In this document: in pieces, positions 6,210-26,008 of the stretch
Numbering within the stretch: the stretch's first letter is position 1
Layout of the letters: every line of letters begins with the position of its first letter
Assembly: GCF_014648575.1 (NCBI RefSeq)
Contig: NZ_BMRJ01000001.1
Coordinates: forward strand, 1,713,608-1,777,607
Length of the DNA: 64,000 bases
Direction: 5' to 3'
Source of the DNA: Agromyces mediolanus
Lineage (GTDB): Bacteria > Actinomycetota > Actinomycetes > Actinomycetales > Microbacteriaceae
Position numbers and translations under genes: made by a program
Notes under the pieces: model-generated
Databases searched by the model: none
What the model was told of the DNA's origin: nothing
Seen by the model: only the letters and a program-made list of their open reading frames with translations

Positions 6210-6283
6210 TCGAGCGCTCGGCGACCGAGCGGGTCGGGCGGTGCCGGTGGGGCAGCCGTCGGGTCAGTTCCCGAGATTGTGCA

Positions 6284-6302: not shown

Positions 6303-6317
6303 TTTGAGGAGGCGGCG

Positions 6318-7091: not shown

Positions 7092-7116
7092 CGCCGCTGC
7101 GAACGAAAGGACGACG

Positions 7117-11576: not shown

Positions 11577-12238
11577 GCGGCGCCGGGCCCGCGGCGCTCG
11601 CGGTCGAGCGCATCGCGCACGCCATCCACCGGCGCGGCCTCAGCCACGGACGCACCGGCAACCTGGCGGTGCGCGACGGCGAGCACATCCTGCTCACCCC
11701 GACCGGGGTCAGTCTCGGCGAGGTCGAGGCGGGGGCGCTCTCGGTGCTCGATGCCGAGGGGCGCCGGCTCGACGGGCCCCGCCCGACCAAGGAGGCGTTC
11801 CTGCATCTCGCGGTGCTCCGCACCCGGCCCGAGCTGAACGCCGTCGTGCACACCCACTCGCCGTACGCCGCCGCGCTGTCGTGCCTCGACGGGCTCGACC
11901 CCGAGGCGCCGCTGCCGCCGCTCACCGCCTACTTCGCGATGCGGGTCGGCGCGCTGCGCCTGCTGCCGTACCTCGCGCCGGGGGATGCCTCGGGCACCGC
12001 CCTCGTCGAGGAGGCCGCCGCCGCGAGCCACGCCCTGCTGCTGCGCAACCACGGGCCCGTCGTCGCCGGTAGCGATCTCGATGGTGCGCTCGACGCGCTC
12101 GAGGAGCTGGAGCACACCGCGCAGCTCTTCTTCCTCACCGCCGGGCACCGCACCGCTCCGCTCAGCGCGGAGCGGGTCGCGGCGCTCGCCCAACCGCCCA
12201 TCCAGCCGCCTCTCGAGGGAAGGACCCCCGCCGCATGA
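11573..12238 (+). CDS. otnC: class II aldolase/decarboxylase (OtnC-like)
   Basis: A 221-residue zinc enzyme of the class II aldolase/adducin family. Zinc ligands are His93 and His95 (H-T-H-S) and His160 (R-N-H-G-P); the acid residue near G-R-P-T-K-E corresponds to the catalytic Glu region. Known OtnC proteins decarboxylate 3-oxo-tetronate 4-phosphate to DHAP and CO2. The start GTG 11573 overlaps the kinase stop, and the end overlaps the next ATG. L-fuculose-phosphate-type aldolase activity would be the alternative if the substrate is a longer sugar acid. Confidence 0.86.
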   Translation: MSGAGPAALAVERIAHAIHRRGLSHGRTGNLAVRDGEHILLTPTGVSLGEVEAGALSVLDAEGRRLDGPRPTKEAFLHLAVLRTRPELNAVVHTHSPYAAALSCLDGLDPEAPLPPLTAYFAMRVGALRLLPYLAPGDASGTALVEEAAAASHALLLRNHGPVVAGSDLDGALDALEELEHTAQLFFLTAGHRTAPLSAERVAALAQPPIQPPLEGRTPAA

Positions 12239-12912
12239 TCACCCTCTACAGCGGCCTCGTCGTGCGCCAGCCGCTCGTCGACTCGCTCATCCCCGCCTTC
12301 GAGGCGGAGACGGGCGAGCGCATCGAGGCGACCTTCGAGCCGACGACGGTGCTGCTCGATCGGATCGCCGCGGGCGAGCGCCCCGATCTCGTGCTCGGTG
12401 TCGCCGCTTCGGTCGGCGAGCTCGCGGCGCAGGGCGTGCTCGACCCCGAGACCGTCACCGAACTCGCCGTCTCGGCGATCGGCGTGGCGCGCCTGCCGGA
12501 GACACCGTCGCTGGCGGATGCCTCGGCCGAGGCGTTCCTCGACCGGCTGCTCGAGGCCCGGGCCGTCGCCTACTCGCTCTCCGGCGCGAGCGGGCTGCAC
12601 TTCGCCGGGCTCCTGCGGGAGCGGGGCCTGCTCGAACGCCTCGACGAGCGCGCGGTGCGCTTCCCGGCCGGGCTCACGGCGGAGGCCGTCGTGGACGGCC
12701 GCGCCGAGCTCGCCATCCAGCAGCTGAGCGAACTGCGCTCGGTGGACGGGCCCCACCTCGTAGAGCCGATCCCGCACGAGCTGCAGTCCTACGCGCGCTT
12801 CGCGATCGGCGCGCGCATCGGTGCGCCGGCCGCCGCGCGAGACTTCGCGGCGTCGCTCGCGGGGGAGCGGGCGCTGGCGGCGTTCGAAGCCGTGGGGCTC
12901 AGCGCCCCCTGA
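12235..12912 (+). CDS. ModA-type solute-binding fold protein without signal peptide
   Basis: A 225-residue protein resembling molybdate/iron-type periplasmic binding proteins: ITLYSGLVV at the start, P-D-L-V-L-G in the first lobe, a hinge crossing, and P-x-P-x-E-L-Q-S-Y-A in the second lobe. Unlike real transporter components it has no signal peptide: the mature fold begins at residue 2. ATG 12235 overlaps the aldolase stop, which fixes the start, and no permease or ATPase gene is near. A cytosolic ligand-binding or enzymatic role in the pathway is therefore likely. Similar signal-less proteins exist, but no function can be named. Confidence 0.7.
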   Translation: MITLYSGLVVRQPLVDSLIPAFEAETGERIEATFEPTTVLLDRIAAGERPDLVLGVAASVGELAAQGVLDPETVTELAVSAIGVARLPETPSLADASAEAFLDRLLEARAVAYSLSGASGLHFAGLLRERGLLERLDERAVRFPAGLTAEAVVDGRAELAIQQLSELRSVDGPHLVEPIPHELQSYARFAIGARIGAPAAARDFAASLAGERALAAFEAVGLSAP

Positions 12913-12916
12913 ACCG

Positions 12917-12956
12917 TGCCGGCCAGAGCCGGCATCCGACCACGGCCCGCAGGCCG
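12917..12956 (+). other. two adjacent hairpins between the SBP-like gene and the nucleoside hydrolase
   Basis: TGCCGGC-CAGA-GCCGGCA (12917-12934) and CGGCC-CGCA-GGCCG (12943-12956) both form perfect stems with four-base loops. There is no U-run. They lie in the 75-base gap before the nucleoside hydrolase and may moderate read-through or protect the upstream mRNA. Confidence 0.45.
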
Positions 12957-12987
12957 GACGAGAACGAGAGAACAGAAGGAACAGACA

Positions 12988-13974
12988 ATGAGGAAAGTAG
13001 TGGTGGACACCGACACCGGTGTGGACGACGCCCTCGCGCTGATGCTGCTCGCCGCCGATCCCGAGGTCGAGATCCTCGCGGTGCTGAGCGTCTTCGGCAA
13101 CTGCCACGGCGACCGCGCCGCCGACAACGCGCGCTACGTGCTCGACACCTGCGGGCGCCATGATGTTCCCGTGTACCGGGGCTCCGACGTGCCGCTGAAG
13201 CAGGAGCTGAAGCTCTCGTCCGGCGTGCACGGCGACGACGGCTTCGGCAACACCGGGCTGCGCCCGGAGACGAGCGTGCCCGCCGAGCCGAACGGCATCC
13301 CGATCCTGCTCGACCTCGTCGCCGAGCACGAGGGCGAGATCGACTACCTCGCCCTCGGTCCGCAGACGAACCTCGCGAAGGCGCTCCAGCAGGAGCCGAG
13401 GTTGCTCGAGCGCTTGCGCAGCACGACGATCGTCGGCACGCTGGGCCCGGCGCTGTACCACGACACCGAGCCGTGGGCCGACCGTCGCTTCCGCGTCTCG
13501 CGCGACCCGAACGTGTCCTTCGACATCGACGCGGCCGAGATCGTCGCGAGCCACGAGGGGAACGTGACCTGGTGCGGTCCGTACGTGACCCGGCAGGCGC
13601 TCGTGCCCGAGGACTTCTTCCTCGAGCTCGCCGCCGAGACGAAGTCGCCGCCGGCGGAGCTCATCACCGCGATCAGCCACGACTACGCGGGCTTCTACTC
13701 GCGTTCGTACGGCCGGCCCGACACTGCGCGCGTGATGGGCATCAACGACAGCCTCGCGGTGGCGACGCTGCTGCGGCCGGAGCTCGTCGCGGGGGCCGTG
13801 CAGCGCCCGCTGCAGACCTTCGAGGACGAGGCGACGGGGGAGCGGTTCCTCGCCGGCGTGCACCCGGTGAAGGGCGAGACCCGCCCGATCCATCGGGTGA
13901 TCTTCGACATGGACTTCGACGGCGTGCTGGAGCTCATCGGGGAGACGCTCCGCCGCCCGCTGCCCTGGCGTTAA
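12988..13974 (+). CDS. nucleoside hydrolase (inosine-uridine preferring type)
   Basis: A 328-residue calcium-dependent N-ribohydrolase. The N-terminal DTDTGVDD motif (Asp7, Asp9, Asp13, Asp14) chelates calcium and activates water; G-P-Q-T-N-L-A and the late metal Asp region fit the family. The family cleaves nucleosides to base plus pentose. Within this operon it could release the sugar that is then oxidised, or act on a modified or carbocyclic-type substrate. The ATG 12988 follows GAAGGA. It is separated by 75 bases from the upstream gene but runs in the same direction. Confidence 0.87.
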   Translation: MRKVVVDTDTGVDDALALMLLAADPEVEILAVLSVFGNCHGDRAADNARYVLDTCGRHDVPVYRGSDVPLKQELKLSSGVHGDDGFGNTGLRPETSVPAEPNGIPILLDLVAEHEGEIDYLALGPQTNLAKALQQEPRLLERLRSTTIVGTLGPALYHDTEPWADRRFRVSRDPNVSFDIDAAEIVASHEGNVTWCGPYVTRQALVPEDFFLELAAETKSPPAELITAISHDYAGFYSRSYGRPDTARVMGINDSLAVATLLRPELVAGAVQRPLQTFEDEATGERFLAGVHPVKGETRPIHRVIFDMDFDGVLELIGETLRRPLPWR

Positions 13975-13977
13975 TCC

Positions 13978-13995
13978 TATAGCGCCCGCTATACT
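13978..13995 (+). promoter_or_regulatory. palindromic promoter/operator of the MHS transporter gene
   Basis: TATAGCG-CC-CGCTATA (13978-13993) is a perfect inverted repeat; its right arm overlaps the -10 element TATACT (13990-13995). It begins four bases after the nucleoside hydrolase stop. The trailing ATACTATTTT is shared with the operon promoter at 6296-6305. The predicted transcript starts near 14002, giving a 60-base leader with AAGGAG. Confidence 0.6.
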
Positions 13996-14060
13996 ATTTT
14001 ATTACCGACAACCTCACCCCGCTTCTGCGAAGGTGGCATCGAGCGAAGGAGCTCCCCCCG

Positions 14061-15398
14061 ATGTCGAAACTCCAAGACCCCGCGCCCGCGTCGCGCGCCG
14101 AGGCCTCGCCCGTCCGGAAGCCCGGGCACGCCAAGCAGCTGTTCGCCCTCAGCGCGGGCCACGCGCTCGAGTGGTACGACTGGGCGATGTTCGGGCTCCT
14201 GTCCGTGTACATCGGACAGGCCTTCTTCCCGGGGGAGAACGCGGTCGCCGCGACCCTGAACTCGCTCGCGGTCTTCGCGGTCGGCTTCGTGGTGCGCCCG
14301 ATCGGCGGCGTCGTCTTCGGCCTCGTCGCCGACCGGCTCGGCCGCAAGCCCGTCATGGTGGGGGCCGTGGCGGTCACCGCGGCGGCGAGCCTCGTCATCG
14401 GCATCCTGCCGACGCACGAGACGCTCGGCATCTGGGCCGGCGTCATCGTGCTGTTCTGCCGCATCATGCAGGGCTTCTCGACGGGCATCGAGGGCTCGCT
14501 CGGCGCGGCCTACGGCGTCGAGCTCGTGCCGGACCGCCCGGGCTACGTCGCCGGCTTCATGGCGACGTTCAACAACCTCGGCAACATGCTCGCCCCGCTC
14601 ACCGCGTTCGTCACGAGCTCGCTGATCGGCCCCGAGGGCATGGCCGACTACGGCTGGCGCGTGCCGTTCATCCTCGGCGGCCTGCTCGGCTTCATCGTGC
14701 TGTGGCTCCGCCGCACCCTGCCGGAGACCCTGCCCGCCGCGTCGAGCGTCGCCGAGGGCAGCCGCGTCACCACCCGTCAGCAGACCGGCGAGGTCTGGAA
14801 GGGCGTCCGGAAGTACTGGCTCAGCATCCTCGCCGTCGTCTTCATCGTCGGCGCCATCCAGGCGTACAACTACACCTGGCTCTCGGGGCTGCCGTCCATC
14901 GCGACCGGTACCTACGGCGAGGACCCCACGGGCGTCTTCGCGGTGTCCACCTCGCTCGGCGTCATCCTCACCGTCGGCGCCTTCGTGCTCAGCCGCGTGC
15001 TCGACAAGTGGGACCTCTCGCGCTGGTTCGTGCTCGGCCGCCTGCTCGCGATCCCGACGATCTTCCTGGTGCTGCTCTACACGGGCAACGGTGTGGGCCC
15101 GCTCGCGGCCGTGCTCCTCGGCGGCTCCCTCGTGCTGCTGCTGAACCTCACGATCTTCAGCACCGTCGCGAACCTGATGATCCCGCAGCAGTTCCGCGGC
15201 ACCGCCGTCGGTCTCGGCTACGGCATCGGCGTCGCGCTCTTCGGCGGCACCGCCTCGTACCTGTTCGTCTACCTGCAGAGCGTCGGCCTCGGGAACGTCT
15301 TCCCGTTCTACGTCGCCACGCTCTGCGCCATCAGCGTCGTGCTCTACCTCGTCGCGAAGCGCAAGAACGGCGTCTTCAAGGGCAAGCAGGCCGACTAG
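14061..15398 (+). CDS. MFS transporter, metabolite:H+ symporter type
   Basis: A 445-residue, 12-span transporter of the major facilitator superfamily. After a 25-residue hydrophilic N-terminus comes the HALEWYDWAMFG segment and F-F-P of the metabolite:H+ symporter (ShiA/KgtP/ProP) group, then a D-R-L-G-R-K-P loop between spans 2 and 3. Such carriers import organic or sugar acids with protons. The position between the sugar-acid enzymes and the second GntR, and the shared operator-like sequence, indicate that it imports the pathway substrate. Start: ATG 14061; GAAGGAG lies upstream. Confidence 0.88.
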   Translation: MSKLQDPAPASRAEASPVRKPGHAKQLFALSAGHALEWYDWAMFGLLSVYIGQAFFPGENAVAATLNSLAVFAVGFVVRPIGGVVFGLVADRLGRKPVMVGAVAVTAAASLVIGILPTHETLGIWAGVIVLFCRIMQGFSTGIEGSLGAAYGVELVPDRPGYVAGFMATFNNLGNMLAPLTAFVTSSLIGPEGMADYGWRVPFILGGLLGFIVLWLRRTLPETLPAASSVAEGSRVTTRQQTGEVWKGVRKYWLSILAVVFIVGAIQAYNYTWLSGLPSIATGTYGEDPTGVFAVSTSLGVILTVGAFVLSRVLDKWDLSRWFVLGRLLAIPTIFLVLLYTGNGVGPLAAVLLGGSLVLLLNLTIFSTVANLMIPQQFRGTAVGLGYGIGVALFGGTASYLFVYLQSVGLGNVFPFYVATLCAISVVLYLVAKRKNGVFKGKQAD

Positions 15399-15413
15399 GC
15401 ATCCAGATCGGCC

Positions 15414-15454
15414 GCGCCGTCGGTCCTCCGCGAACCGTGGGGGACCGGCGGCGC
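15414..15454. terminator. hairpin between convergent MHS transporter and GntR genes
   Basis: A 13-base-pair stem (15414-15426 with 15442-15454, one G-U pair) closes a 15-base loop between the convergent stops. It has no clear U-run but could end transcription from both sides. Confidence 0.6.
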
Positions 15455-15497
15455 GTTCGTGCGCCCGGGGGCCGGCGCCCCATGACGCCGGGCATGC

Positions 15498-16220
15498 TCA
15501 GCGCGCGGGCGGCTCGGCCGTGCCGGCGCTCGCCGCGCGCTCGTCGGTGAGCGTGCGGCGCCTGGCTTCTTCGATGTGCGCGCGCATGAGCCGCACCGCG
15601 GCCTCCTCGTCGCCGCCCGCGATCGCGTCGTAGATGCCGCGATGCTCCGCCGCCGCTTCGAGCGCGTGCGTGCGGCCGGCCCGGCCGCTCAGCCGGAAGC
15701 GCTGCAACTGGCTGCCGAGCGCGGCGAAGGCGCGGTGCGTGAATGGGTTGCCGGTCTGCGCGCTGATGAGCGTGTGGAAGGACTCGTCGGCGACCCAGCT
15801 CGCCTTCAGCGTCTCGGGGTCGGCGAGCTCTCCCGCCCGCTCCATCGTCTCGATGGTCGCGAGCAGCCGGCCCAGGAACTCGGGATCCGCCTTCGTCGTC
15901 GCCTCGCCCGCGAAGCTCGGCTCGAACAGCAGCCTGGCGTCCATGAGCTGCACGATCTCGGAGGGGGAGAGGAGGGGCGCGACCTCGTAGCCCCGGAGCG
16001 GATGCCGCAGCACGAAGCCGGTCGGCTCGAGTCGGGCGAGCGCCTCGCGGATCGGCGTCGCCGACAGGCCCATCTCGCGGGAGAGGGCGCCGATGTTGAG
16101 CCGGTCGCCCGGTTCGCGCCGCCCGCCGATCATCTGCAGCAGCAGCTCGTCGTAGGCGCGGTCGGCGTACGGCACGCGGGTGGACCGCCGTCGCGACGGC
16201 GGGACGCGCTCTTCGCTCAC
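15498..16220 (-). CDS. GntR family regulator with FCD domain (second copy)
   Basis: A 240-residue regulator with the winged helix at about residues 18-85 (L-N-I-G-A-L-S-R-E-M, then T-P-I-R-E-A) and an FCD effector domain. It is strikingly similar to the protein at 5544-6209 along its whole length, with a longer basic N-terminus and an Ala/Pro tail. The GTG start at 16220 has GAGGAG eight bases upstream. It is convergent to the MHS transporter and likely regulates it and/or the BtpA gene. The two regulators may respond to different intermediates of one pathway. Confidence 0.9.
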   Translation of the reverse strand: MSEERVPPSRRRSTRVPYADRAYDELLLQMIGGRREPGDRLNIGALSREMGLSATPIREALARLEPTGFVLRHPLRGYEVAPLLSPSEIVQLMDARLLFEPSFAGEATTKADPEFLGRLLATIETMERAGELADPETLKASWVADESFHTLISAQTGNPFTHRAFAALGSQLQRFRLSGRAGRTHALEAAAEHRGIYDAIAGGDEEAAVRLMRAHIEEARRRTLTDERAASAGTAEPPAR

Positions 16221-16281
16221 TCGGGCTCCTCGGGGGTGGTCGGTCGTGCCTGCTCGAACCTATCGCGTCGCCGGCGCACGG

Positions 16282-16316
16282 CTCGGGGCCCGCGCCGTAG
16301 CGGCGCGGGCCCCGAG
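16282..16316 (-). terminator. strong hairpin terminator after the BtpA gene
   Basis: A perfect 15-base-pair GC-rich stem (16282-16296 with 16302-16316) with a five-base loop follows the BtpA stop on the minus strand. A U-run is absent, as is common in this GC-rich group. Confidence 0.7.
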
Positions 16317-16341
16317 GTGCTGCGGGCGGGAGCTGGACGGC

Positions 16342-17178
16342 TCAGGCCGCCTTCTTGACCTGACCCGAACGCCAGAGCTGCACGAACTCGCGGGTCATCT
16401 CGCCGCTCGCGGGCAGGTCCATGTCGGCGTTCGGCTTCGAGCCGTAGCCGAACACGGCGCCGTCGGCGACCTCCGCGTAGGTGGCGGCGTGCTTCGCCGT
16501 CATGCCCGAGCCGAGGATGATCGGGGCGTCCGCGATGGCGTCCTTGACCTGGCGCAGACGGTCGAGGCTCGGCGGCATGCTCGTGTCGTCGCCGGCGAGG
16601 ATGATCGCGTCGGCGCCGCCGCGGTGCAGCATGTCGGCCGCGATGACCGGCACGGGGCGCTCGACGAGCGGGCGCGCGTGCTTCGTCAGCAGATCCGCCA
16701 GCGTGAGGATGTGCTCGCCGCCGATGTGCTTCTTGTAGCGGGCCACGAGATGCGCCTCGCTGTTGATGATGCCCTGGTCGGTGACCGAGGCGTCGGTGAG
16801 GATGTTCAGCCGGATGAACTGCGCGTCGACCGCCGCGGCGATGCCGAGCGAGGCCTTCCACGAGTTGCGGAGGATGTTGATGCCGATCGGCAGCTCGGTC
16901 TGGCGACGCACCTCGCGGGCGACGACGGCGGCCGCGGCGACGGTCTCCGGCTCGATGGTGACGGGGTAGAAGGGGTAGTCGTGGAAGTTCTCGACGAGGA
17001 GGGCGTCCACGCCGCCCTCGGCGAGGGTGTTCGCGTCCTGCACCGCGCGGTCGATGACGTCGTTCAGATCGCCGGAGAAGGCGGGGGCGCCGGGCAGGGC
17101 GTACATGTGCACCATGCCGATGACGGGGGCCTTGCCGCCGAAGACGCCGTTGAAGCGGTCGAGGTAGGGGTAGCTCAT
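16342..17178 (-). CDS. BtpA/SgcQ family TIM-barrel protein
   Basis: A 278-residue protein of the BtpA family (BtpA of cyanobacterial photosystem I biogenesis; SgcQ of the enterobacterial sgc sugar cluster). Recognisable parts are V-I-G-M-V-H near the start, GVDALLVENFHDYPF, LPIGINILRN, FIRLNILTDA and the final LGSGMTA/ADGAVFGY loops, all typical of a TIM-barrel phosphate-binding enzyme. The biochemical role is unknown; association with sugar operons suggests an aldolase, epimerase or glycosidic-bond reaction. The ATG 17178 follows AGGAG. It is transcribed from its own AT-rich promoter. Confidence 0.82.
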   Translation of the reverse strand: MSYPYLDRFNGVFGGKAPVIGMVHMYALPGAPAFSGDLNDVIDRAVQDANTLAEGGVDALLVENFHDYPFYPVTIEPETVAAAAVVAREVRRQTELPIGINILRNSWKASLGIAAAVDAQFIRLNILTDASVTDQGIINSEAHLVARYKKHIGGEHILTLADLLTKHARPLVERPVPVIAADMLHRGGADAIILAGDDTSMPPSLDRLRQVKDAIADAPIILGSGMTAKHAATYAEVADGAVFGYGSKPNADMDLPASGEMTREFVQLWRSGQVKKAA

Positions 17179-17345
17179 GGGAGGGCTCCTAGGGGATGGG
17201 ACGCGGGCGCGCGGCCGCCATCGGCCGGGCGACGCTGCGTCGACGGGGTTCGTCCGCTCGGCGCACACGCGCCGAACGGCGGCCGCGAGTGCGGCCCGGG
17301 GCGGAAAATGCCTGTCGACCGGCCGTTCTGCTCCCGTTGCTTCAA

Positions 17346-17373
17346 ATAATATTGGATTCTTGTTGGAAGTCAA
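17346..17373 (-). promoter_or_regulatory. sigma-70-like promoter of the BtpA gene
   Basis: On the minus strand TTGACT (17373-17368) and TATTAT (17351-17346) are spaced by 16 bases, the best -35/-10 pair in the window, in an AT-rich patch. The leader to the BtpA ATG is about 160 bases. The rest of the 17179-17470 gap shows nothing else except the promoter of the next gene. Confidence 0.7.
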
Positions 17374-17457
17374 GGCGCGGGGTTCGACGTCAGCCACGGG
17401 GCGGCGGCGCGGTGGGCCGGAGCCCGCGACGGGCGTCGCCTGGTCGGGGATCGCGGC

Positions 17458-17470
17458 TAGGGTGGGGCGC
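17458..17470 (+). promoter_or_regulatory. leaderless promoter of the GH114-like gene
   Basis: TAGGGT (17458-17463) lies seven bases before the ATG at 17471, the usual leaderless arrangement in this window. Confidence 0.55.
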
Positions 17471-18355
17471 ATGCGGGGAGGGGCGGCGGGGCGCGGACGA
17501 TGGCGTCGACTGGGCAGTGGGCTCGCCGCCGCCGGGATCCTCATTCTGCTCGCCGCCTGCGCGCCGAGCGGGGGAGCCGACGGGCCAGGGGGTGCCGAGG
17601 CGTCCGCGTCGGGCGTCGCGCCGACCGCACCGGGCATCGCCCTGCCGCCGGCGGGCGGCCTGCCGGACTATCAGCTCGGCGGGGCATACGAGCCGGCGGA
17701 CGAGGTCAGCATCGTCGCGCGGGACCGTAGTGCTTCTCCGGCGGAGGGTCGCTACTCGATCTGCTACGTCAACGGCTTTCAGACGCAGCCCGGCGAGCTG
17801 CAGGACTGGCCCGCTGAGCTTCTCCTGCAGCGGGACGGCGCCCCCGTCTTCGACCCCGACTGGCCGGACGAGGCGCTGCTCGACCACTCCACGCCCGAGC
17901 GTCGCGAGGCCATCGCGGCGATCGTCTCGCCCTGGATCGCGGGCTGCGCGGCGGCGGGCTACGACGCCGTTGAGTTCGACAATCTCGACAGCTACACCCG
18001 CTCGCGCGGTGCGCTCGCACTCGACGGGGCGGTCGAACTCGCGCGGCTGCTGGTCTCCGCCGCGCACGAAGCCGGGCTCGCCGCCGGGCAGAAGAACGCC
18101 GCCGAGGATGCCGCGGTGCTCCGCGACCGCGGCGGCTTCGATTTCGCCGTGACCGAGGAGTGCGCCGCCTACGCGGAGTGCGGGGCGTACGCCGCGGTCT
18201 ACGGCGACGAGGTCATCGACATCGAGTACAGCGACGAGCTGCCCGTGCCCTTCGGCGAGCTCTGCCGCGCGCCCGGCGCACCGGGCTCGATGGTGCTGCG
18301 CGACCGGCAGCTCACCGTGCCGGGCGATGCTGCGTACGTCTTCGAGACGTGTTGA
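17471..18355 (+). CDS. endo alpha-1,4-polygalactosaminidase-like lipoprotein (GH114 type)
   Basis: A 294-residue secreted lipoprotein: basic N-terminus, hydrophobic core and lipobox LAA-Cys30, then a low-complexity linker to about residue 60. The folded part is a TIM-barrel of the GH114/DUF297 type, shown by YSICYVNGF (strand 1), A-G-Y-D-A-V-E-F-D-N-L-D with the acidic pair at strand end, A-G-Q-K-N-A and F-A-V-T-E-E-C. The family cleaves galactosaminogalactan-type polymers. The last 32 coding bases and stop recur downstream at 19805-19838, marking an insertion exactly at the 3' end of this gene. Confidence 0.82.
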   Translation: MRGGAAGRGRWRRLGSGLAAAGILILLAACAPSGGADGPGGAEASASGVAPTAPGIALPPAGGLPDYQLGGAYEPADEVSIVARDRSASPAEGRYSICYVNGFQTQPGELQDWPAELLLQRDGAPVFDPDWPDEALLDHSTPERREAIAAIVSPWIAGCAAAGYDAVEFDNLDSYTRSRGALALDGAVELARLLVSAAHEAGLAAGQKNAAEDAAVLRDRGGFDFAVTEECAAYAECGAYAAVYGDEVIDIEYSDELPVPFGELCRAPGAPGSMVLRDRQLTVPGDAAYVFETC

Positions 18356-18357
18356 GG
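18324..18357 (+). repeat. left copy of 34-base direct repeat (3' end of GH114-like gene)
   Basis: These 34 bases match 19805-19838 at 31 positions. They encode the last residues of the GH114-like protein (D-A-A-Y-V-F-E-T-C and stop). The three differences are transitions, two of them silent. Confidence 0.85.
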
Positions 18358-18432
18358 AGCCGCCGAGAAAGGGATACCTATGCGTACCTTGATTTGAGCT
18401 TTCATGGCCGGAATGTCGGCGGCATACGGAAT

Positions 18433-18446
18433 CATGGGATCCCATG
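18433..18446. promoter_or_regulatory. 14-base palindrome upstream of the XseA-like gene
   Basis: CATGGGATCCCATG is a perfect palindrome in the AT-richer leader of the XseA-like gene. It could be an operator. It also overlaps a possible but poorly supported ATG start at 18444. Confidence 0.45.
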
Positions 18447-18506
18447 GAGCAGTGTTCCCGCATTTCACGGACTGCGATCGATGGCGCGGGCGCCCGCAGT
18501 TCACCA

Positions 18507-19805
18507 GTGAGCGATGAACGTCGTAGCTCCGCGCCTTGCGACGTGCCGGGCGTGCACGCGATCGTGGGTGACGCGCTTGCCGCTGCCGGAGAGTTGCACC
18601 TCCCCGAAGCCGAGGTCCTGCGCGTCGAGCACGGTGCGAGCGGCGTGCGCCTGCTGCTCGGGGCGCGCGACGAGCGCGGCGAGCTCCGCACTGTCGACGC
18701 GGCGGTCGCTTCGCACTGTCGGCCGTACCTGCCGAAGGGACTCGCCCCTGGGGCTGTCCTCGATGTGCGCGGGCGGCTCTCCGTCGACGCTTCGGCGGGC
18801 CTGCGCCTGAAGATCGGCTTCGTCGCGCGTCGCCCTCCGCGCGACGGCCCGATTCATCGTGCCCGACGCGCGGCGCGTGAGCGCCTGCTCGCCGAGGGCG
18901 TTCTGCGGGCGGCAGCCATCGAACCGCCGCGGGCCCTGCTGGACGCGGCTCGCCGCGTGCTGTTGATTTCGCCGCCGGGCAGCGCTGGCCGCGCGGACTT
19001 CCTGGGCGAGGTTCGTCCTGCCCGCGACCTCGAGGTGCGCGAGATCGCGGTGCGGATGAACGGGGAGGCCGCGGCGCCCGAGCTCGCGAGGCGCCTCGCC
19101 GACCCCGGTGACGTCGACCTCGTCGTCCTCGTGCGCGGCGGTGGAGACTGGCGCGGCCTCGCGCTCTTCGACGACGAGCGTCTCATTCGAGCGATCCACG
19201 CGTGCCCGGTGCCCGTGGTGCTCGGCGTCGGGCACCGGAGCGACGATGAGCTGCTCGCGAATCGAGCGGGTGCAGGTCGGTTCAGCACGCCGACAGCCGT
19301 CGGACGCGAGCTGCGCGCGGCAGCCGGTCGACGACGGCGTCAGCGCGCGGCGAGCGCCTCGCCGGGTGCGCCCTACGAAGCTTCCCGTCGCAACTGGACC
19401 GCGGCTGGCCGCGACGAGCTCGGGCGGCTCCGACAGGAGCTCCAGCGCGCGCAGATCCAGCTCGAGCGTCAGCGCGCCCTGTACGCACTGGCGTCCGGAG
19501 CGCTCGCGGAGCGGGTGCTCCGACGGGTGCGGCGTCGCGCGCGCTGGCAGTTCGTCGCGGCGCTCGGCGGTGCGGCTGCGGCGATGGGCGTGCTCGCCGC
19601 GCTCGCTGCGCCGATCTGGCTGCTCGCCGGAGCGGCGGTGGTCGGCCTCGCCCTCGGAATCTGGCTCGGCCGCGGCGGCGCTCGCGCGCGTCGACCGCTC
19701 GCGGCGACCATTCGGCATCGGCCGCGCACCGACGAGGACTGGATTCGGCTCGCGACCATCGCCTCCCGGCCCCGAGAGCATCGTCGGCTGCTGCCGCCGC
19801 GCTAG
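18507..19805 (+). CDS. exodeoxyribonuclease VII large-subunit-like protein with C-terminal membrane hairpin
   Basis: A 432-residue protein from GTG 18507; an ATG at 18444 would add 21 residues but has no ribosome-binding site. Residues 20-120 resemble the XseA OB-fold. Residues 125-270 match the XseA catalytic core: Asp164, Arg210 in V-R-G-G-G, His243 and Asp246 in G-H-x-x-D, with F-S-T-P-T-A following. Their spacing (46, 33, 3) fits the essential residues of E. coli ExoVII (155, 205, 238, 241). The long coiled-coil tail of XseA is replaced by a short coil and two membrane spans (about 347-392). No small subunit XseB is nearby. A membrane-tethered nuclease is inferred. Confidence 0.75.
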   Translation: MSDERRSSAPCDVPGVHAIVGDALAAAGELHLPEAEVLRVEHGASGVRLLLGARDERGELRTVDAAVASHCRPYLPKGLAPGAVLDVRGRLSVDASAGLRLKIGFVARRPPRDGPIHRARRAARERLLAEGVLRAAAIEPPRALLDAARRVLLISPPGSAGRADFLGEVRPARDLEVREIAVRMNGEAAAPELARRLADPGDVDLVVLVRGGGDWRGLALFDDERLIRAIHACPVPVVLGVGHRSDDELLANRAGAGRFSTPTAVGRELRAAAGRRRRQRAASASPGAPYEASRRNWTAAGRDELGRLRQELQRAQIQLERQRALYALASGALAERVLRRVRRRARWQFVAALGGAAAAMGVLAALAAPIWLLAGAAVVGLALGIWLGRGGARARRPLAATIRHRPRTDEDWIRLATIASRPREHRRLLPPR

Positions 19806-20737
19806 CGATGCCGCGTACGTCTTCGAGGCGTGCTGAGGCGCGGGGCGAAGCCGATCACGAGACCGAGGGCGATGGCCGCCATCCCGAGCCAGGCGCCGGG
19901 CGAGGGGAGCGGTGCGCCGAGCGCCGCGGCGATGAGGGCCGCGGCCGGGGCGGCGGTGCCCGCGCACAGGCCGGCCGCGGCGGCGCCCATCCGGCCGACC
20001 CCCGTGAACCAGAGCACGAAGGCGAGCGCGGTGGCGATCGCGCCGAGATAGGCGATCGCGCCGAGCGCGGTCGGTGAGGCGAGCAGGGCGGGCTCCGGAT
20101 GCTCGGTGAACGCCGAGAGCACGCCGAACGCGATCGCGGCGACGGCGCACGTCGCGGCCGAGTAGCTCCACGCGCCCATCCGCGGCAGCGCCCGGGCGCC
20201 GAAGAGCGTGAGGCCCGCCTCGCCCGCCACGAGGGCGAGGCCCATCAGCACCCCGAGCGGGTCCGCGCGGCCCCAGCCGGTCACGGCGATCGCCCCGACG
20301 CTGACGACGACGGCGCCGACGACGAGGCGGGGCGACGGGCGCCGGCCCGCCGCGAGCGGAGCCGCGAGTGCGAGCACGAGCGGGATGCAGCCGACCGCCG
20401 CGCCGAGGAACGCCGGTTCGGCGTGGGCGGTGCCGACGATCGTCGCGAGATTGAAGCCGACGAGGCCGGTCGCCGCCCCGCCGAGCACCCAGCCCAGATC
20501 GCGGAGTCGCGGCAGCACGAGGCGCACCCGGAAGATCCGCGCGAACACCACGATGGCCGCGACGGCCACGGCGTAGCGGGCGGACTGCAGGGCGAACACC
20601 GGCAGGGTGCGCGTCGCGTCGATGACCGCGACGCTGCTGCCGAGCAGCGCCATCGCGGCGAGTCCCGGCCAGAGCGCCCACCAGCCGAGCCCGGCGGTGC
20701 GGGATGGGGCGGTCGCCGTGAGAGAGGTAGTGGGCAT
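19802..20737 (-). CDS. EamA/DMT family transporter
   Basis: A 311-residue, ten-span exporter of the drug/metabolite transporter superfamily with two EamA halves (the second begins near L-G-V-L-M-G-L-A-L). Small hydrophobic residues dominate and a short basic tail ends the protein. The ATG at 20737 was chosen because an upstream ATG (20767) would sit inside the operator. It is divergent from a MocR regulator, a common pairing for amino-acid or amine exporters. Its last codons are encoded by the right direct repeat, so the insertion next door redefined its C-terminus. Confidence 0.85.
   Translation of the reverse strand: MPTTSLTATAPSRTAGLGWWALWPGLAAMALLGSSVAVIDATRTLPVFALQSARYAVAVAAIVVFARIFRVRLVLPRLRDLGWVLGGAATGLVGFNLATIVGTAHAEPAFLGAAVGCIPLVLALAAPLAAGRRPSPRLVVGAVVVSVGAIAVTGWGRADPLGVLMGLALVAGEAGLTLFGARALPRMGAWSYSAATCAVAAIAFGVLSAFTEHPEPALLASPTALGAIAYLGAIATALAFVLWFTGVGRMGAAAAGLCAGTAAPAAALIAAALGAPLPSPGAWLGMAAIALGLVIGFAPRLSTPRRRTRHR
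19805..19838 (+). repeat. right copy of 34-base direct repeat
   Basis: Matches 18324-18357 at 31 of 34 positions. It begins at the last base of the XseA-like stop codon and overlaps the 3' end of the convergent DMT transporter gene, whose own stop uses the same CTAG tetranucleotide. Confidence 0.85.
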
Positions 20738-20763
20738 GCCGCGAGCCTGCCCGCTCGAATGGA

Positions 20764-20802
20764 CCATCGACAGGTGCCATCGATGATGGATAGATTGGGC
20801 CA
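20764..20802. promoter_or_regulatory. divergent promoter/operator between DMT exporter and MocR regulator
   Basis: CCATCGA occurs twice (20764-20770 and 20777-20783, 13-base step), and the second copy extends into the inverted repeat CCATC-GAT-GATGG (20777-20789). Direct repeats plus an inverted repeat are typical of MocR operators. TAGATT (20791-20796) six bases before the ATG at 20803 gives a leaderless start for the regulator. Confidence 0.6.
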
Positions 20803-22254
20803 ATGCCGGGCGACGGATTCCTCCTGCTGGATTCGACCGCGGTGCCGCGCGGACGTCGCGCGGACTGGCTCGCCGGCGAACTGCGTGCGGCCATCGCGGG
20901 TGGCGCCCTGCGCGCGGGGTCCAGGCTGCCGGCGACCCGGGTGCTCGCGGGCGAACTCGGCTTCGCCAGGAACACCGTCGCCGAGGCGTATCGCCGGCTC
21001 GCGGAGGAGGCCCTCGTGGAGCCCCGCGTCGGCGTCGGCACGGTCGTCGCCGCATCGAGCGCGCGCAGCACGCGGGCGGCGGCGCCGCGAACGGCGAGGC
21101 CACGCTCGGCCTCATCGCGCGGCGACGGGCGCGTCGCACCGGCGCACTCCCCGCAGGGCCCGGCGCACGAGCCGATCGATCTCGCCGCCGGCCTGCCCGA
21201 GCTCACGGCGTTCCCCCGCGCGGCCTGGCTGCGCGCGGAGCGCGAGGTGCTCGCCGAGGCATCCCGGCGCACGCTCGGCTATCAGGACCCGGCCGGCGCC
21301 CCGGCGCTCCGCGAGGCGCTCTCGGCCTGGCTCGCCCGCTCGCGCGGCGTGGTCACCGAACCGGGCGGCGTCATCGTCACCGCCGGCGTCACCGGGGCGC
21401 TCGCGCTGCTCGCCGGGGCGCTCCTCGGCGAGGGACACGACTCGGTGGCGCTCGAGGATCCGGGCGCGACCGGCAATCGCCGCATCCTGGAGTACTGGAT
21501 GCCGCGGGTCGAGCCCGTGCCCGTCGACGCGGACGGCCTCGTGGTCGAGGAGCTCCGACGGCGCGACGCCGACGCCGTCCTCGTGACGCCCGCGCACCAG
21601 TACCCGAGCGGCGTCGTGCTCGCCCCCGGGCGGCGGCGGGAGCTGGTGGCGTGGGCGGACGAACGGGCCCGCCGGCTCATCGTCGAGGACGACTACGACG
21701 CCGAGTACCGATACGACCGGCGGCCCGTGCGCGCGCTGCAGCCGCTCGCGCCCGAGCGCGTCGCCTACACCTCGAGTCTGTCGAAGACGCTCGCGCCCGC
21801 CCTCCGGCTCGGCTGGCTCGTGCCGCCGACGCGGCTCGTCGAGCAGCTCGTCGAACGGCAGTGGGCGAGCGGGCTGGGGTCGCCGGCGCTGCCGCAGCTC
21901 GCGCTGGCACGGCTGCTCGACTCCGGCGCGCTCGAACGGCACCTCCGGGCGATGCGGGCTCGACACCGGCTGCGCCGGGATGCCGCCGTCGCGGCGGTGC
22001 GCGCCCAGCTGCCCGAGGCACGCGTGCACGGCGTGGCCGCGGGCCTCCACCTGCTGCTGGAGCTCCCCGGCGGCGTCGACGATGCCCGGGTCGCCGCCGC
22101 GGCACGCGAACTGGGCGTGCTCGTGCAGCCGCTCAGCGTGCAGCGGCACCGCCCCGGCCCGCCCGGCCTCATCGTGCACTACGCGGCGACGCATCCCGCG
22201 CGCTTCGAACGGGCGATCGCCACGATCGCCCGGGCCGTCCGCGGCGCACGGTGA
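20803..22254 (+). CDS. MocR/PdxR-like regulator (GntR winged helix fused to aminotransferase fold)
   Basis: A 483-residue fusion. Residues about 15-75 form a GntR winged helix (LPATRVLAGELGFARNT-type residues, then A-Y-R-R-L). A linker rich in Ala/Arg leads to a class I aminotransferase-like domain (about 125-480) with the PLP lysine Lys328 in S-L-S-K-T-L and the binding residues V-E-D-D-Y-D and Y-D-R-R-P. Family members sense PLP, sometimes with an amino compound, and activate or repress neighbouring genes. The divergent DMT exporter is the likely target. Confidence 0.88.
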   Translation: MPGDGFLLLDSTAVPRGRRADWLAGELRAAIAGGALRAGSRLPATRVLAGELGFARNTVAEAYRRLAEEALVEPRVGVGTVVAASSARSTRAAAPRTARPRSASSRGDGRVAPAHSPQGPAHEPIDLAAGLPELTAFPRAAWLRAEREVLAEASRRTLGYQDPAGAPALREALSAWLARSRGVVTEPGGVIVTAGVTGALALLAGALLGEGHDSVALEDPGATGNRRILEYWMPRVEPVPVDADGLVVEELRRRDADAVLVTPAHQYPSGVVLAPGRRRELVAWADERARRLIVEDDYDAEYRYDRRPVRALQPLAPERVAYTSSLSKTLAPALRLGWLVPPTRLVEQLVERQWASGLGSPALPQLALARLLDSGALERHLRAMRARHRLRRDAAVAAVRAQLPEARVHGVAAGLHLLLELPGGVDDARVAAAARELGVLVQPLSVQRHRPGPPGLIVHYAATHPARFERAIATIARAVRGAR

Positions 22255-22282
22255 AGCACGCCTCCGTGTCGCCGGTCGTCGC

Positions 22283-22294
22283 TATCGTGGGCAC
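22283..22294 (+). promoter_or_regulatory. leaderless promoter of the YdeI-like gene
   Basis: TATCGT (22283-22288) is followed by six bases and the GTG start at 22295. Confidence 0.55.
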
Positions 22295-22879
22295 GTGCCC
22301 GCAGAGTCCCCTGAGCCCTTCGTCGTCCCCGACGCCGCAGCCTGGCGCGCCTGGCTCGACGCCAACGAGCACGAGTCCGACGGGGTCTGGCTGCTGCTCG
22401 CGAAGAAGGGCACGCGCACGCCCACCTCGCTGAGCTACGCCGAGGCGCTCGACGAGGCCCTCTGCAGCGGGTGGATCGACGGGCAGAAGCGCAGCTACGA
22501 CGAGGCGACCTTCCTGCAGCGCTTCACTCCGCGGCGCCGCGCCTCGCTCTGGTCGCAGCGCAACATCGGGCTCGTCGCCGCGCTCATCGAGGCGGGCCGC
22601 ATGCGGCCGCGCGGCGAGGCCGAGATCGCGCGGGCGAAGGCCGACGGCCGCTGGGACCGCGCCTACGCGGGCTCGAAGACCGCCGAGGTGTCGCCCGAGC
22701 TGCAGGCGGCGCTCGACGCGGAGCCCGCGGCCGCCGAGCTCTTCGCGAGGCTCAACGCCACGAACCGCTTCGCGGTGCTGCACCGCATCGCGACCGCCCC
22801 GAGCGAGACGAGTCGCCGCAACCGCCTCGAGAAGCTCGTCGGCATGCTCGCCAGGGGCGAGACCCCATACCCGCAATGA
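22295..22879 (+). CDS. YdeI/OmpD-associated family protein
   Basis: A 194-residue cytosolic protein of the YdeI/OmdA family. Recognisable parts are the W-L-x-x-N-H/E-x-E-S-D-G-V-W-L start, S-L-S-Y-x-E-A-L-D-E-A-L-x-x-G-W-I-D-G, the R-R-R-A-S-L-W-S-x-R-N region and the C-terminal helical bundle. The family is linked to stress and peptide resistance in some bacteria, but its biochemistry is unknown. The GTG start was picked from the leaderless promoter; the family N-terminus fits this start. It stands alone after the MocR gene. Confidence 0.82.
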   Translation: MPAESPEPFVVPDAAAWRAWLDANEHESDGVWLLLAKKGTRTPTSLSYAEALDEALCSGWIDGQKRSYDEATFLQRFTPRRRASLWSQRNIGLVAALIEAGRMRPRGEAEIARAKADGRWDRAYAGSKTAEVSPELQAALDAEPAAAELFARLNATNRFAVLHRIATAPSETSRRNRLEKLVGMLARGETPYPQ

Positions 22880-22976
22880 GCCGCCCCGGCGCCCACCCTG
22901 GCGGGTGCGCGACATCGGGGCGGCGTGTGACGCGACCGAGTTGCACCCGTCGGGCAGTTTCGGCACGCTGAGTACC

Positions 22977-23945
22977 GTGCCGTCCTCCCCGCGCTCCGCG
23001 CTCGATCTCCGTTCGCCGAAGCGCCTCGCGATCCTCGCCGCCGGCGCGGTCGTGCTGCTCGGGCTCGCGGTGCTGCTCGCGCGCTGGCTGCGCACCCTGC
23101 CCGAGGTCGAGGCCTTCGTCGCGAGCTACCCCGGACACAGCCCGCTGCCGCAGGGGGCGCCCGTCGGCATCCCCGCCTGGCTCGGCTGGCAGCACTTCTT
23201 CAACGCGTTCTTCCTCGTGCTGCTCGTGCGCACGGGGCTCATCATCCGGTCCAAGGCGCGTCCGCCCGCGTTCTGGACGCGGGACAACACGCGCTGGCCG
23301 CGCACGAAGGGCGCCCCGCGCCGGCTCGGCATCTCCGTGTGGCTGCACCTCGTGGTCGACGCGCTCTGGGTGCTGAACGGGCTCCTCTACGTCGTGCTGC
23401 TCTTCGCGACCGGGCAGTGGCTGCGCATCGTGCCGACGAGCTGGGACGTGGTGCCGAACTCGATCTCCGTCGTGCTGCAGTACCTCTCGCTCGACTGGCC
23501 CGTCGAGAACTCCTGGGTCGCGTACAACGACGCGCAGGTGCTCTCGTACTTCGCCGTCGTCTTCCTCGCCGCGCCCCTCGCCGTGCTGACGGGGTTGCGG
23601 CTCTCGCCCGTCTGGCCGATGCAGGGCCGGCTCGCCCGGGTGTTCCCCGAGCGGCTCGCGCGAGCCGTGCACTTCCCGGTGATGCTGTTCTTCCTGCTCT
23701 TCACCTTCGTGCACGTCGTGCTTGTGCTCGCGACCGGGGCGCTGCGCAACCTGAACCACATGTACGCCTCGCGCGACGCGAGCGACTGGGTCGGCTTCGC
23801 GATCTTCGCCGTCTCCGTGCTCGCCCTCGTCGGGGCGTGGGTGCTCGCGCGCCCGCTGCTGCTGGCGGGCCTCGCCGGCCGGTTCGGCCAGCTGCGGCGG
23901 ATGCCTCCTCCGCCGCCCGCGAAGCCGGCGACGCCGCGCGACTGA
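22977..23945 (+). CDS. cytochrome b/b6-like multi-spanning membrane protein
   Basis: A 322-residue membrane protein with about five spans and several conserved His residues suited to heme b: W-Q-H-F-F-N-A-F-F in the second span, V-W-L-H-L-V-V-D in the third, A-R-A-V-H-F-P and F-V-H-V-V-L in later spans. This pattern is that of the cytochrome b561/hydrogenase-type b subunit that accompanies molybdopterin oxidoreductases. No such oxidoreductase gene is beside it here. The GTG start at 22977 gives a plausible N-terminus; the C-terminus is Pro-rich. It could pass electrons between quinone and an unlinked partner. Confidence 0.72.
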   Translation: MPSSPRSALDLRSPKRLAILAAGAVVLLGLAVLLARWLRTLPEVEAFVASYPGHSPLPQGAPVGIPAWLGWQHFFNAFFLVLLVRTGLIIRSKARPPAFWTRDNTRWPRTKGAPRRLGISVWLHLVVDALWVLNGLLYVVLLFATGQWLRIVPTSWDVVPNSISVVLQYLSLDWPVENSWVAYNDAQVLSYFAVVFLAAPLAVLTGLRLSPVWPMQGRLARVFPERLARAVHFPVMLFFLLFTFVHVVLVLATGALRNLNHMYASRDASDWVGFAIFAVSVLALVGAWVLARPLLLAGLAGRFGQLRRMPPPPPAKPATPRD

Positions 23946-23953
23946 CGTGCGGC

Positions 23954-23973
23954 GGGCCCGGCTTCGCGGGCCC
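23954..23973. terminator. hairpin between convergent genes
   Basis: GGGCCCG-GCTTCG-CGGGCCC forms a perfect seven-base-pair stem with a stable UUCG-like loop between the convergent cytochrome-b-like and ankyrin genes. It can act in both directions. Confidence 0.6.
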
Positions 23974-23984
23974 GGACCGTCCGC

Positions 23985-24743
23985 TCAGCCGGCCGCGTCG
24001 ATCTCGGCGACGATCGCGCTGAAGCCGCGCTGCTCGGCGAGCCGGCGCGGCAGCACCCCGTCGCCGTCCGGGATCGAGGGGTCCGCGCCCGCGGCGAGCA
24101 GCAGTCGCACGGTCTCGACGTGCTCGGGGCTGCCGTCGCCGAGCACGATCGCCTCGTGCAGGGCGGTCCAGCCGAGCCGGTTCACGTGATTCACGGGGAC
24201 GCCGGCCGCGAGCAGGATGCGCACCGTCTCGACGTGCGCGTGCTCGCTCGCCGGGATGAGCGCGGTGCCGCCGTACCGGTTCGTGCTCGCGACGTCGGCG
24301 CCGTGCTCGAGGGTGAGGCGGAGGACCTCGTTGAGGCCTTCGGCGCCGGCGTAGAGGAAGGCGGAGTCCTCGATCGCGTCCTTCGCGTTCGGGTCGGCCC
24401 CGGCCTCCAGCAGCGCCTCGGCGAGATCGGCGCGGTCGGCGCGGGTGGCGGTGACGAGGACCGGTCGGTTCTCGGCATCTCGGGCGTTCGGGTCGGCGCC
24501 CTGGTCGAGCGCGCGCCGTGTCTCGGCGAGGTCGCCGGCGGCGGTCGCGGTGACGAGCAGTGCGGTCGCCTCGGCGGACGGCAGGGTCGGGGTCGCGGGC
24601 ATAGGGGTGGCCTCCTCGGCGGGTGCGGTGGTGGGCGGGGGAGTCGTGGGGCTCGGACCGGCGGCGACGCAGCCGGCGAGGGTGAGTGCGGCCGCGGTGG
24701 CGAGGGCTACGGCCGCGGCCGTCCGAGCGCGTGTGGACCTCAT
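23985..24743 (-). CDS. ankyrin-repeat lipoprotein
   Basis: A 252-residue exported lipoprotein: signal peptide with lipobox L-A-G-Cys, a Thr/Pro-rich linker, then about five ankyrin repeats (about residues 60-250) recognisable by A-L-L-E-A-G-A-D-P-N, L-G-W-T-A-L-H-E-A and V-R-L-L-L-A-A-G-A-D-P. Ankyrin repeats bind proteins. The ATG 24743 has GGAGG upstream and shares ATGA with the MFS exporter stop, so the two are translationally coupled and may interact at the membrane. Confidence 0.85.
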   Translation of the reverse strand: MRSTRARTAAAVALATAAALTLAGCVAAGPSPTTPPPTTAPAEEATPMPATPTLPSAEATALLVTATAAGDLAETRRALDQGADPNARDAENRPVLVTATRADRADLAEALLEAGADPNAKDAIEDSAFLYAGAEGLNEVLRLTLEHGADVASTNRYGGTALIPASEHAHVETVRILLAAGVPVNHVNRLGWTALHEAIVLGDGSPEHVETVRLLLAAGADPSIPDGDGVLPRRLAEQRGFSAIVAEIDAAG

Positions 24744-26008
24744 GGGGACCTCCTGGTGGTGGCGGGGTCGGCGGTGGACCGTCGATTCGCGCGACGCGGC
24801 ACGCGGGGGGACGCGAGCGGACCCCGGGGCGCGGGGCGCCCGGCGGCGAGGCCGAAGGCGAGCTGTGCGCCGGCGACGAGCGAGAGCCCTGCGATGAGCG
24901 GCGTCCACGGCACGCCGGCCGAGGAGAGCAGACCGAGTGCGAGCGGCCCGAGCGCGGCGACGGCGTAGCCGGCGCCCTGGGCGACCGCGGAGAACGCCGA
25001 GGTGCGCGCGGCGTCGGGCGCGCGGGCCACGATGAGCCCGACCGCGAGGCCGAACGCGGCGCTCTGGGCGATGCCCAGTACCGCGACGAAGGCGGGCGCG
25101 AGCGCGATCGGGGCGAAGGCGAGGCCGAGGATGCCGAGGACGGAACAGGCGGAGACGACGGCGATGACGCCCGACTGGGTGCGGAAGCCCGCGGCGATGG
25201 TCGGGGCGAGCAGGGCGGCCGGGATGCCGGCGACGCTCATCCAGGCGAGCAGCAGGCCCGCCTGGGAGGGGGCGAGCCCGCGATCGACGGCGATGGTCGG
25301 CAACCAGGCGGTCAAGGCGAAGTAGATGAGCGCCTGAGCGGCGAAGAACCCGGTGACCGACCACATGCGCGGCGCGCGCAGGATCGAGCCCGGAGCGCGC
25401 GGGGTCGAGCGCTCCGGCAGGCGGGCGGCCGCGCCCGACAGCCGCGGCAGGACCGCCCAGGCCAGCACGGCGGCCGCGACGACGGGCAGGCCCCAGAGCC
25501 CGACCGCGATGGCCGCGCTGTCGCCGGTGCGGCTGAGCATCGGCACGGCGAGGGAGGCGCCGAGTGCGGCGCTCGCGCCGAAGGCGGCCGTGTACACCCC
25601 GGACCAGAGTCCGTGGCGTCGGTCGAGGTGGGTGCGGACGAGCTGCGGCGTGAGGATGCCGAGGAGGGAGATGCTCGCGCCGACGACGACGGTGCCGAGC
25701 AGCAGCGGCACCGTGCCGAGCGGGCGCAGCAGCATGGCGAGCGCGAGGGCGCTCAGCAGGACCGCCGCCGCTCGGTCGGCGCCGAGCCGACGGGCGAGCG
25801 GGGGAGCGATCGGCGCCGCGAGCCCGAACAGCAGGACCGGGATGGTGCTGAGCCACGCGGCGCCGCTCGCACCCAGCTCGAAGTCGTGCTCCAGCTCCGG
25901 CAGGAGCGCGGCGACGCTCGTGATCGGCGAGCGCACGGAGAGGCCGATGCCGACGACGAGGGCGCCGGCCGCGAACGGCGCGCCGAGAGCGGCGCGCCGG
26001 TCAGCCAT
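24740..26008 (-). CDS. MFS transporter, CynX/NimT type
   Basis: A 422-residue, 12-span transporter of the major facilitator superfamily. The beginning G-I-G-L-S-V-R-S-P-I-T-S-V and P-E-L-x-x-D-F/L fit the CynX/NimT group (cyanate, nitroimidazole and related exporters or importers). The ATG 26008 lies eight bases inside the end of the FadR-type gene. It ends in a basic tail that overlaps the ankyrin lipoprotein start. It is co-transcribed with the regulator that also faces the amidohydrolase/ABC operon, so it may export a product of that pathway. Confidence 0.85.
   Translation of the reverse strand: MADRRAALGAPFAAGALVVGIGLSVRSPITSVAALLPELEHDFELGASGAAWLSTIPVLLFGLAAPIAPPLARRLGADRAAAVLLSALALAMLLRPLGTVPLLLGTVVVGASISLLGILTPQLVRTHLDRRHGLWSGVYTAAFGASAALGASLAVPMLSRTGDSAAIAVGLWGLPVVAAAVLAWAVLPRLSGAAARLPERSTPRAPGSILRAPRMWSVTGFFAAQALIYFALTAWLPTIAVDRGLAPSQAGLLLAWMSVAGIPAALLAPTIAAGFRTQSGVIAVVSACSVLGILGLAFAPIALAPAFVAVLGIAQSAAFGLAVGLIVARAPDAARTSAFSAVAQGAGYAVAALGPLALGLLSSAGVPWTPLIAGLSLVAGAQLAFGLAAGRPAPRGPLASPRVPRRANRRSTADPATTRRSP

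Follow-up and report, generated by a model that had tools for sequence, protein, structure and literature searches.

How does one gene come to lie between two convergent neighbors in the company of nothing that resembles a mobile element? The question is raised by a stretch of 64,000 nucleotides (nt) from Agromyces mediolanus (contig NZ_BMRJ01000001.1, positions 1,713,608 to 1,777,607; henceforth termed the window), in which a gene for a membrane nuclease related to XseA of exonuclease VII (ExoVII) lies between a GH114 glycoside hydrolase gene and a convergent EamA/DMT transporter gene, framed by two copies of a direct repeat. An initial annotation had taken the repeats as the marks of a mobile unit that integrated precisely at the end of the GH114 gene and brought a substitute 3' end with it. 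Here, we compare the locus with related genomes and find its counterpart without the gene in another genome of the genus (G030), in which the ends of the two host genes overlap. We consider it fairly probable that the locus records the recombinase-free acquisition, at a gene end, of a lone membrane ExoVII-type effector nuclease, perhaps one serving defense.

Insertion into a convergent overlap

Matches to the GH114 protein at E <= 1e-20 were obtained from 7 of 60 genus genomes, that of the window (G000) included, and the closest of these, G030, contains both window flanks. Window positions 15946-18365 align with positions 1-2396 of its locus L032, and 19813-21350 with 2362-3882. On G030, these matches have 35 nt in common, the single repeat copy, and the GH114 gene (81% protein identity to that of the window) is directly followed by the DMT gene, i.e., the empty site that the initial annotation had proposed to seek in relatives. 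At the other five GH114 loci, similarity to window positions 13001-26000 is confined to the GH114 gene. The stop codons in G030, at 2383-2385 for GH114 and at 2342-2344 on the opposite strand for DMT, delimit a 44-nt convergent overlap. The corresponding features of the window are:

17474..18355, + strand: GH114 glycoside hydrolase gene (start codon uncertain), the upstream neighbor, intact (Pfam PF03537, 9.2e-47)
18324..18360, + strand: left copy of the direct repeat, equal to the end of the GH114 gene
18361..18443, + strand: leader of the inserted gene, low in G+C, with no counterpart in G030
18444..19805, + strand: inserted gene for a membrane ExoVII-like nuclease of 453 amino acids (PF02601, 1.2e-27; fold match to E. 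coli ExoVII, 8txr, 8.5e-18)
19805..19841, + strand: right copy of the direct repeat, which read antisense is the C-terminus of the DMT gene
19802..20737, - strand: convergent EamA/DMT transporter gene (start uncertain; PF00892, 1.7e-13), its stop sharing CTAG with that of the inserted gene

Each host gene of the window thus has a repeat copy at its end, the GH114 gene the left one and the DMT gene, in antisense, the right one. The TAG stop of the inserted gene (19803-19805) extends by one base into the right repeat, and the DMT stop occupies 19802-19804, together forming CTAG; the right repeat is therefore DMT coding sequence. The contact between the inserted gene's stop and the right repeat had been recognized from the start, but the assignment of that copy needs correction, and with it the larger claim: precise insertion at a gene end stands, given the empty site, whereas a 3' end supplied by the element is not required. 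The repeat is most of the host-gene overlap in duplicated form, and this 44-nt overlap accounts for both copies. When the window flanks are joined by script, the DMT protein ends in ...RTRHRPAR*, compared with ...RTRHR* at present, so that the insertion would apparently have shortened DMT by three residues and left GH114 unchanged.

The two copies span 34 nt (18324-18357 and 19805-19838), differ at positions 8, 24 and 29, and start 1481 nt apart, as previously described; lengthened to 37 nt (18324-18360 and 19805-19841), they show four mismatches. With gapless scoring (+1/-2), the best match of the GH114 gene end (18256-18365) in the following 3 kb scores 25; the highest score among 200 first-order Markov resamplings was 17. 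Among all repeats found in the window at spacings of 50-5000 (11-mer seeds), this one ranks first, the six next best scoring 20. Of the three mismatches in the 34-nt repeat, two are synonymous in the GH114 frame and one exchanges Thr and Ala; at the two informative positions, G030 sides once with the left copy and once with the right.

The view that a single gene lies between the repeats was confirmed: the 1362-nt inserted gene occupies nearly the whole span, and the other listed open reading frames (ORFs) of at least 100 amino acids overlap it. Equally, no recombinase was recognized between the repeats, a statement based on the inserted gene, which matches ExoVII only, the overlapping ORFs not having been scanned. 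The G+C content immediately ahead of the gene (18358-18443) is 54.7%, compared with 73.0% for the window, and at third codon positions (GC3) the inserted gene has 80.8%, below both neighbors (88.1 and 93.6%). No sigma70-type promoter was matched within 18200-20000, and Rfam gave no match at the gathering threshold in five loci; two sub-threshold Rfam matches near the inserted gene were taken as chance.

Genomic islands can sit at the 3' ends of genes, such as tRNA genes, with an att repeat. The window shares with them a direct repeat that completes the end of a host gene and a precise empty site, which invites a reading as a tiny non-autonomous island integrated site-specifically, with the 34-nt repeat as attL and attR, an imported substitute GH114 3' end, and a recombinase acting in trans or since lost. 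Besides the position at a gene 3' end and the one copy in the empty site, this would be in keeping with an inverted repeat in the left copy (ACGTCT-TCG-AGACGT) and with two codons there, GCT and TGT, that end in T and correspond to C-ending ones in the right copy, the GC3 of the GH114 gene being 88.1%. We nevertheless regard such an integration as unlikely. The window differs from islands in that no integrase was recognized, only one gene was carried, the second copy serves the convergent gene, and no repeat is common to the members of the nuclease family, the flanks of 12 other member loci being without such repeats. With up to three mismatches, moreover, the sequence occurs twice in its own genome, both times as the present copies, and in 0 of 59 other genomes (36 of the genus and 23 of the order), and the host-gene overlap already explains both copies.

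Could the gene instead be ancestral, and lost in relatives? Recombination between the 34-nt repeats would yield the G030 arrangement. However, the membrane family was found in only 1 of the 60 genus genomes, G000 (at E <= 1e-28), and in 0 of the other 59; the low-G+C leader and the GC3 value of the gene, below those of its neighbors, likewise speak against loss, and the origin of the repeat would remain to be explained. We consider loss in G030 very improbable. The initial annotation had held that insertion would be unsupported if close relatives all carried the gene in this place with the second repeat conserved as part of the DMT gene. The gene was found in none of those 59 genomes; the second repeat does, on the other hand, form part of the DMT gene.

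In the sequence of events that we favor, a horizontally acquired single gene would have entered the 44-nt convergent overlap of the GH114 and DMT genes without a recombinase of its own, probably when incoming DNA recombined illegitimately or with the help of homology, and some 34-37 nt of the overlap would have been duplicated so that each host gene retained an end. The insert may then have persisted since both neighbors survived: an insertion into an overlap spares both genes almost entirely only if the overlap is duplicated, which would explain why this one was retained. The locus offers a clean natural case, complete with empty site, in which one gene has entered a densely coding genome with no mobile element to be recognized. 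It suggests a rule by which insertions into overlapping convergent genes are retained only if the overlap is copied, and such a rule could account for other att-like repeats that lack an integrase. Among the literature matches listed for insertions at convergent genes, nothing relevant appeared.

To the left of the insertion (window 1-18365), the sequence is 93.4% identical to that of G030, and well to the right (23816-62342) 86.3%, with 89% and 87%, respectively, in the left and right stretches nearest to it, possibly reflecting unequal recombination histories.

A family of membrane-bound ExoVII-like proteins

The description of the product as an XseA-like membrane nuclease held up, in that it is related to ExoVII and has a predicted transmembrane part. 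Its parts are:

18591..18833, + strand: predicted OB domain, residues 50-130 (AlphaFold model, whose fold matches include SSB chains 1ue7 and 4dam at E ~1e-3)
18936..19343, + strand: catalytic domain, residues 165-300, with D185, R231, H264 and D267
19551..19688, + strand: predicted transmembrane region, residues ~370-415 (hydropathy segment 382-400; model helices 312-387 and 394-415)
19731..19787, + strand: C-terminal motif with W433 and R447, invariant columns in a 10-member alignment

An alternative start is possible at a GTG at residue 22. The protein scores 97.7 bits with the Exonuc_VII_L catalytic domain (PF02601, cut-off 35.9) and retains D185, R231, H264 and D267; with the NCBIfam xseA equivalog model it reaches 98.9 bits, below the cut-off of 180. 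Only one hydropathy segment, residues 382-400, rises above the threshold. A 19-residue hydropathy scan recognized at least one transmembrane-like segment in each of the 10 aligned members and in none of 7 canonical XseA proteins; such a segment is also present in the Rhodococcus proteins and in those of G1179 and G1051, two further probable members. In a phylogenetic tree, which excludes these two, 11 membrane ExoVII-like proteins are separated from 7 canonical XseA proteins by a 100/100 branch, the tool cautioning about a long branch (P0001) and the unusual composition of the window protein. Among the columns that do not vary across the 10 aligned members are E50, R231-G234, W236, G263, T282-P283, W433 and R447.

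A first structure model was weak (mean predicted local distance difference test (pLDDT) score 60.9); the model used was built with 17 alignment rows and has a mean pLDDT of 75.2. Its best fold matches are the H238A chains of E. coli ExoVII (8txr, E = 8.5e-18), which is also the sole PDB chain found by sequence. The template modeling scores to 8txr are low (0.32-0.33 by query length), meaning that the domains match and the overall shape does not. GHRSDD of the window protein aligns with G-A-E-T-D of the mutant chain, and H264 therefore corresponds to H238. Like XseA (PF02601, TIGR00237, PDB 8txr), the protein has an OB domain, a catalytic domain with the D/R/H/D residues, and a long helix behind it. 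In contrast to XseA, it falls below the xseA cut-off, carries a transmembrane-like segment and a C-terminal W/R motif, and stands apart in the tree; nor does the 1444-nt insert, of which the gene takes up 1362 nt, leave space for an xseB of usual size beside it. The predicted build of the family, i.e., an OB domain, a catalytic domain, a coil, one or more transmembrane segments and a C-terminal motif in a lone protein, is apparently undescribed. What appears to be new at this locus is the combination of an ExoVII-like nuclease remodeled into a lone membrane protein with its acquisition as one gene.

The retained ExoVII fold and motif could also be expected of a repair-type XseA paralogue with no role in defense, which ordinary homologous recombination between the genes on either side had moved. 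This strikes us as rather unlikely, if less so than site-specific integration, as the genome already has a separate, normal XseA of 422 residues, the protein is set apart from XseA by the tree and its transmembrane segments, and the family is rare and patchy (4 of 398 genomes of the taxonomic family: G000, G407, G455 and G255). According to Oliveira et al. 2017 (PMC5635113), half of hotspots show no evidence of mobile elements, and their flanking core genes recombine more often. The window resembles the integrase-less hotspots described there in having variable accessory genes between conserved flanks and differs in that the unit consists of a single gene placed at a gene end, with a duplicated overlap.

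A member-like gene of Antrihabitans stalagmiti (L192) has a stop after the OB domain, apparently lacks the transmembrane part, and was left out of the analysis as broken after three frames had been read; L190 was left out as a canonical XseA.

Distribution and other insertion sites

Within the taxonomic family, carriers with the same build are G407, G255, G455, G864 and G868; G423 (81.9 bits) was left out of the family count, having been assigned to canonical XseA by score and range. Relatives of the same build also occur in Paenarthrobacter (two), Arthrobacter terricola and Paeniglutamicibacter. Among 396 genomes of the phylum, G000 alone stands out with 541 bits, the next scoring 104: 58 genomes gave a match, and 57 of these (80.5-104.0 bits) were assigned to canonical XseA by score and range, L081 and L084 having been inspected by motif and tree. 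A set of 396 genomes of the order returned G000 and the two probable members of G1179 (130 bits) and G1051 (113 bits). All counts are lower bounds, as the candidates scored per genome numbered 4 for the family and phylum sets, 3 for the order and 25 for the genus.

The window protein matched 5 plasmid records, all from Rhodococcus, which led to a full-length member; on Rhodococcus plasmids, 5 of 56 matching records cover at least 80% of the query. Two other Rhodococcus plasmids, NZ_CP088909.1 and NZ_CP092103.1, match only over residues 1-197 and 1-46, respectively, and in the former an IS110 transposase underlies a joined match. No relative was recovered from genome contigs in a close-relative scan with the window protein (117 pattern matches) or from viral contigs with a 3-member alignment (42 pattern matches), and phage records gave no match.

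Presence and absence of the single gene occurs at three unrelated sites. In G255, the member has a convergent gene on one side and, on the other, the hairpin that follows a DEAD-box helicase gene, and the site is empty in 6 of 6 other genus genomes, where the flanks lie 6-102 nt apart. At the G455 site, 18 genus genomes comprise three carriers (G455, G864 and G868), twelve genomes with adjoining flanks, two (G870 and G871) in which a different gene, and no member at this place, occupies the interval, and G867, which gave no right flank; the member is thus missing in 14 of 15 other genus mates, G867 being the fifteenth. Precise insertion with a duplicated overlap is seen, given the empty site, at one of the three sites, that of the window.

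Gene placement suggests that the family may prefer convergent gene ends. The ORF ends of the member and a convergent gene are separated by 3 nt in G455, G864 and G868 and overlap by 4 nt in Paeniglutamicibacter; the convergent gene lies 35 nt downstream in G255 and 48 nt downstream on the Rhodococcus plasmid. In G407, Paenarthrobacter AR 02, A. terricola and G1051, the next gene points in the same direction, and in G1179 none is close. Directly downstream of the AR 02 member lies a DUF222-HNH endonuclease gene (L188:8050-9375).

A mobile unit defined by its repeats, as the initial annotation had envisaged, is not borne out elsewhere. In a uniform repeat test covering 600 nt on each side, 12 of 12 other member loci score 9-11 and the window 25, so that the flanking duplications expected around the same gene at other places were found at none of them; the repeat listings of other members include no long direct repeats among the families listed, and in G255 and G455, whose sites are likewise empty in relatives, the junctions look unlike that of the window.

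Possible function and defense context

The inserted protein is most likely located in the membrane, where it would degrade single-stranded DNA of invaders such as phages or plasmids, or kill the infected cell, as a stand-alone defense effector. PMC11077951, citing Jung et al. 2015, notes that XseA overexpression was reported to be toxic. A stand-alone relative of XseA whose C-terminal part is bound to the membrane might act as a conditional effector that degrades DNA. Cargo of a defense type is plausible, as first proposed; this part of the proposal finds company in SIR2 and NsnC-like genes in the same interval at one site. Some members have further suggestive neighbors: within the 12 kb around the probable member of G1179, models of SoFic, C3a212 and a type IV restriction enzyme (C-terminal half) are matched, and a match to Vsr lies 5 kb from the A. 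terricola member. The family of membrane-bound ExoVII-like nucleases may consist of anti-phage effectors. A wider generalization, that stand-alone membrane-tethered ExoVII-type immune effectors of actinobacteria move as one naked gene that settles at gene ends, with overlap duplication sparing both neighbors even in overlapping convergent genes, is offered tentatively, and we would put it at somewhat less than even.

Several observations weigh against recombinase-free acquisition of a defense nuclease. No PADLOC model matches the window protein or any of the 10 members scanned, and the 13 neighbors considered (6 with and 7 without a PADLOC match) were hand-picked, with no background rate. The catalytic D/R/H/D set is complete in 6 of 10 members, the window protein among them, and deviates in the other 4: E takes the place of the first D in P0003 and P0007, whereas the last D is missing from P0005 and P0008, the latter also being without H. 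In the probable member of G1179, T replaces R of RGGG, while GH..D and the C-terminal W are kept; that of G1051 has RGGGS, like canonical XseA. Canonical XseA, according to PMC11077951, requires XseB for DNA binding, which weighs against a lone enzyme unless the family departs from this rule; the lone protein might be inactive or use host XseB. Finally, the choice of insertion over a precise deletion in G030 is an argument from parsimony. An ExoVII-like defense gene was not reported among the literature matches listed, which did not cover preprints and most subscription journals.

The family resembles SIR2-type single-gene defense insertions in consisting of a lone gene and differs from them in that its proteins match no known defense model. 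At the G455 site itself, G871 carries a SIR2 gene (PADLOC, 1.5e-170) and G870 a gene of 624 residues with an NsnC-like C-terminal match (2.8e-10), both in the intergenic interval that holds the member in G455; they lie across a conserved segment of ~180 nt from the member position, not at the same base. The G870 gene (L175:1306-3180) looks foreign, with a GC3 of 0.56, no Pfam match and the C-terminal NsnC-like match only. The ~180-nt segment, at L111:7603-7781 in G455 and at the same place in the genus, is non-coding and ends in a strong hairpin. It is 94-96% conserved in two genomes, compared with 84-86% for the left flank, has no Rfam match at the gathering threshold, and may represent an RNA gene, not yet described, that neighbors sites of insertion.

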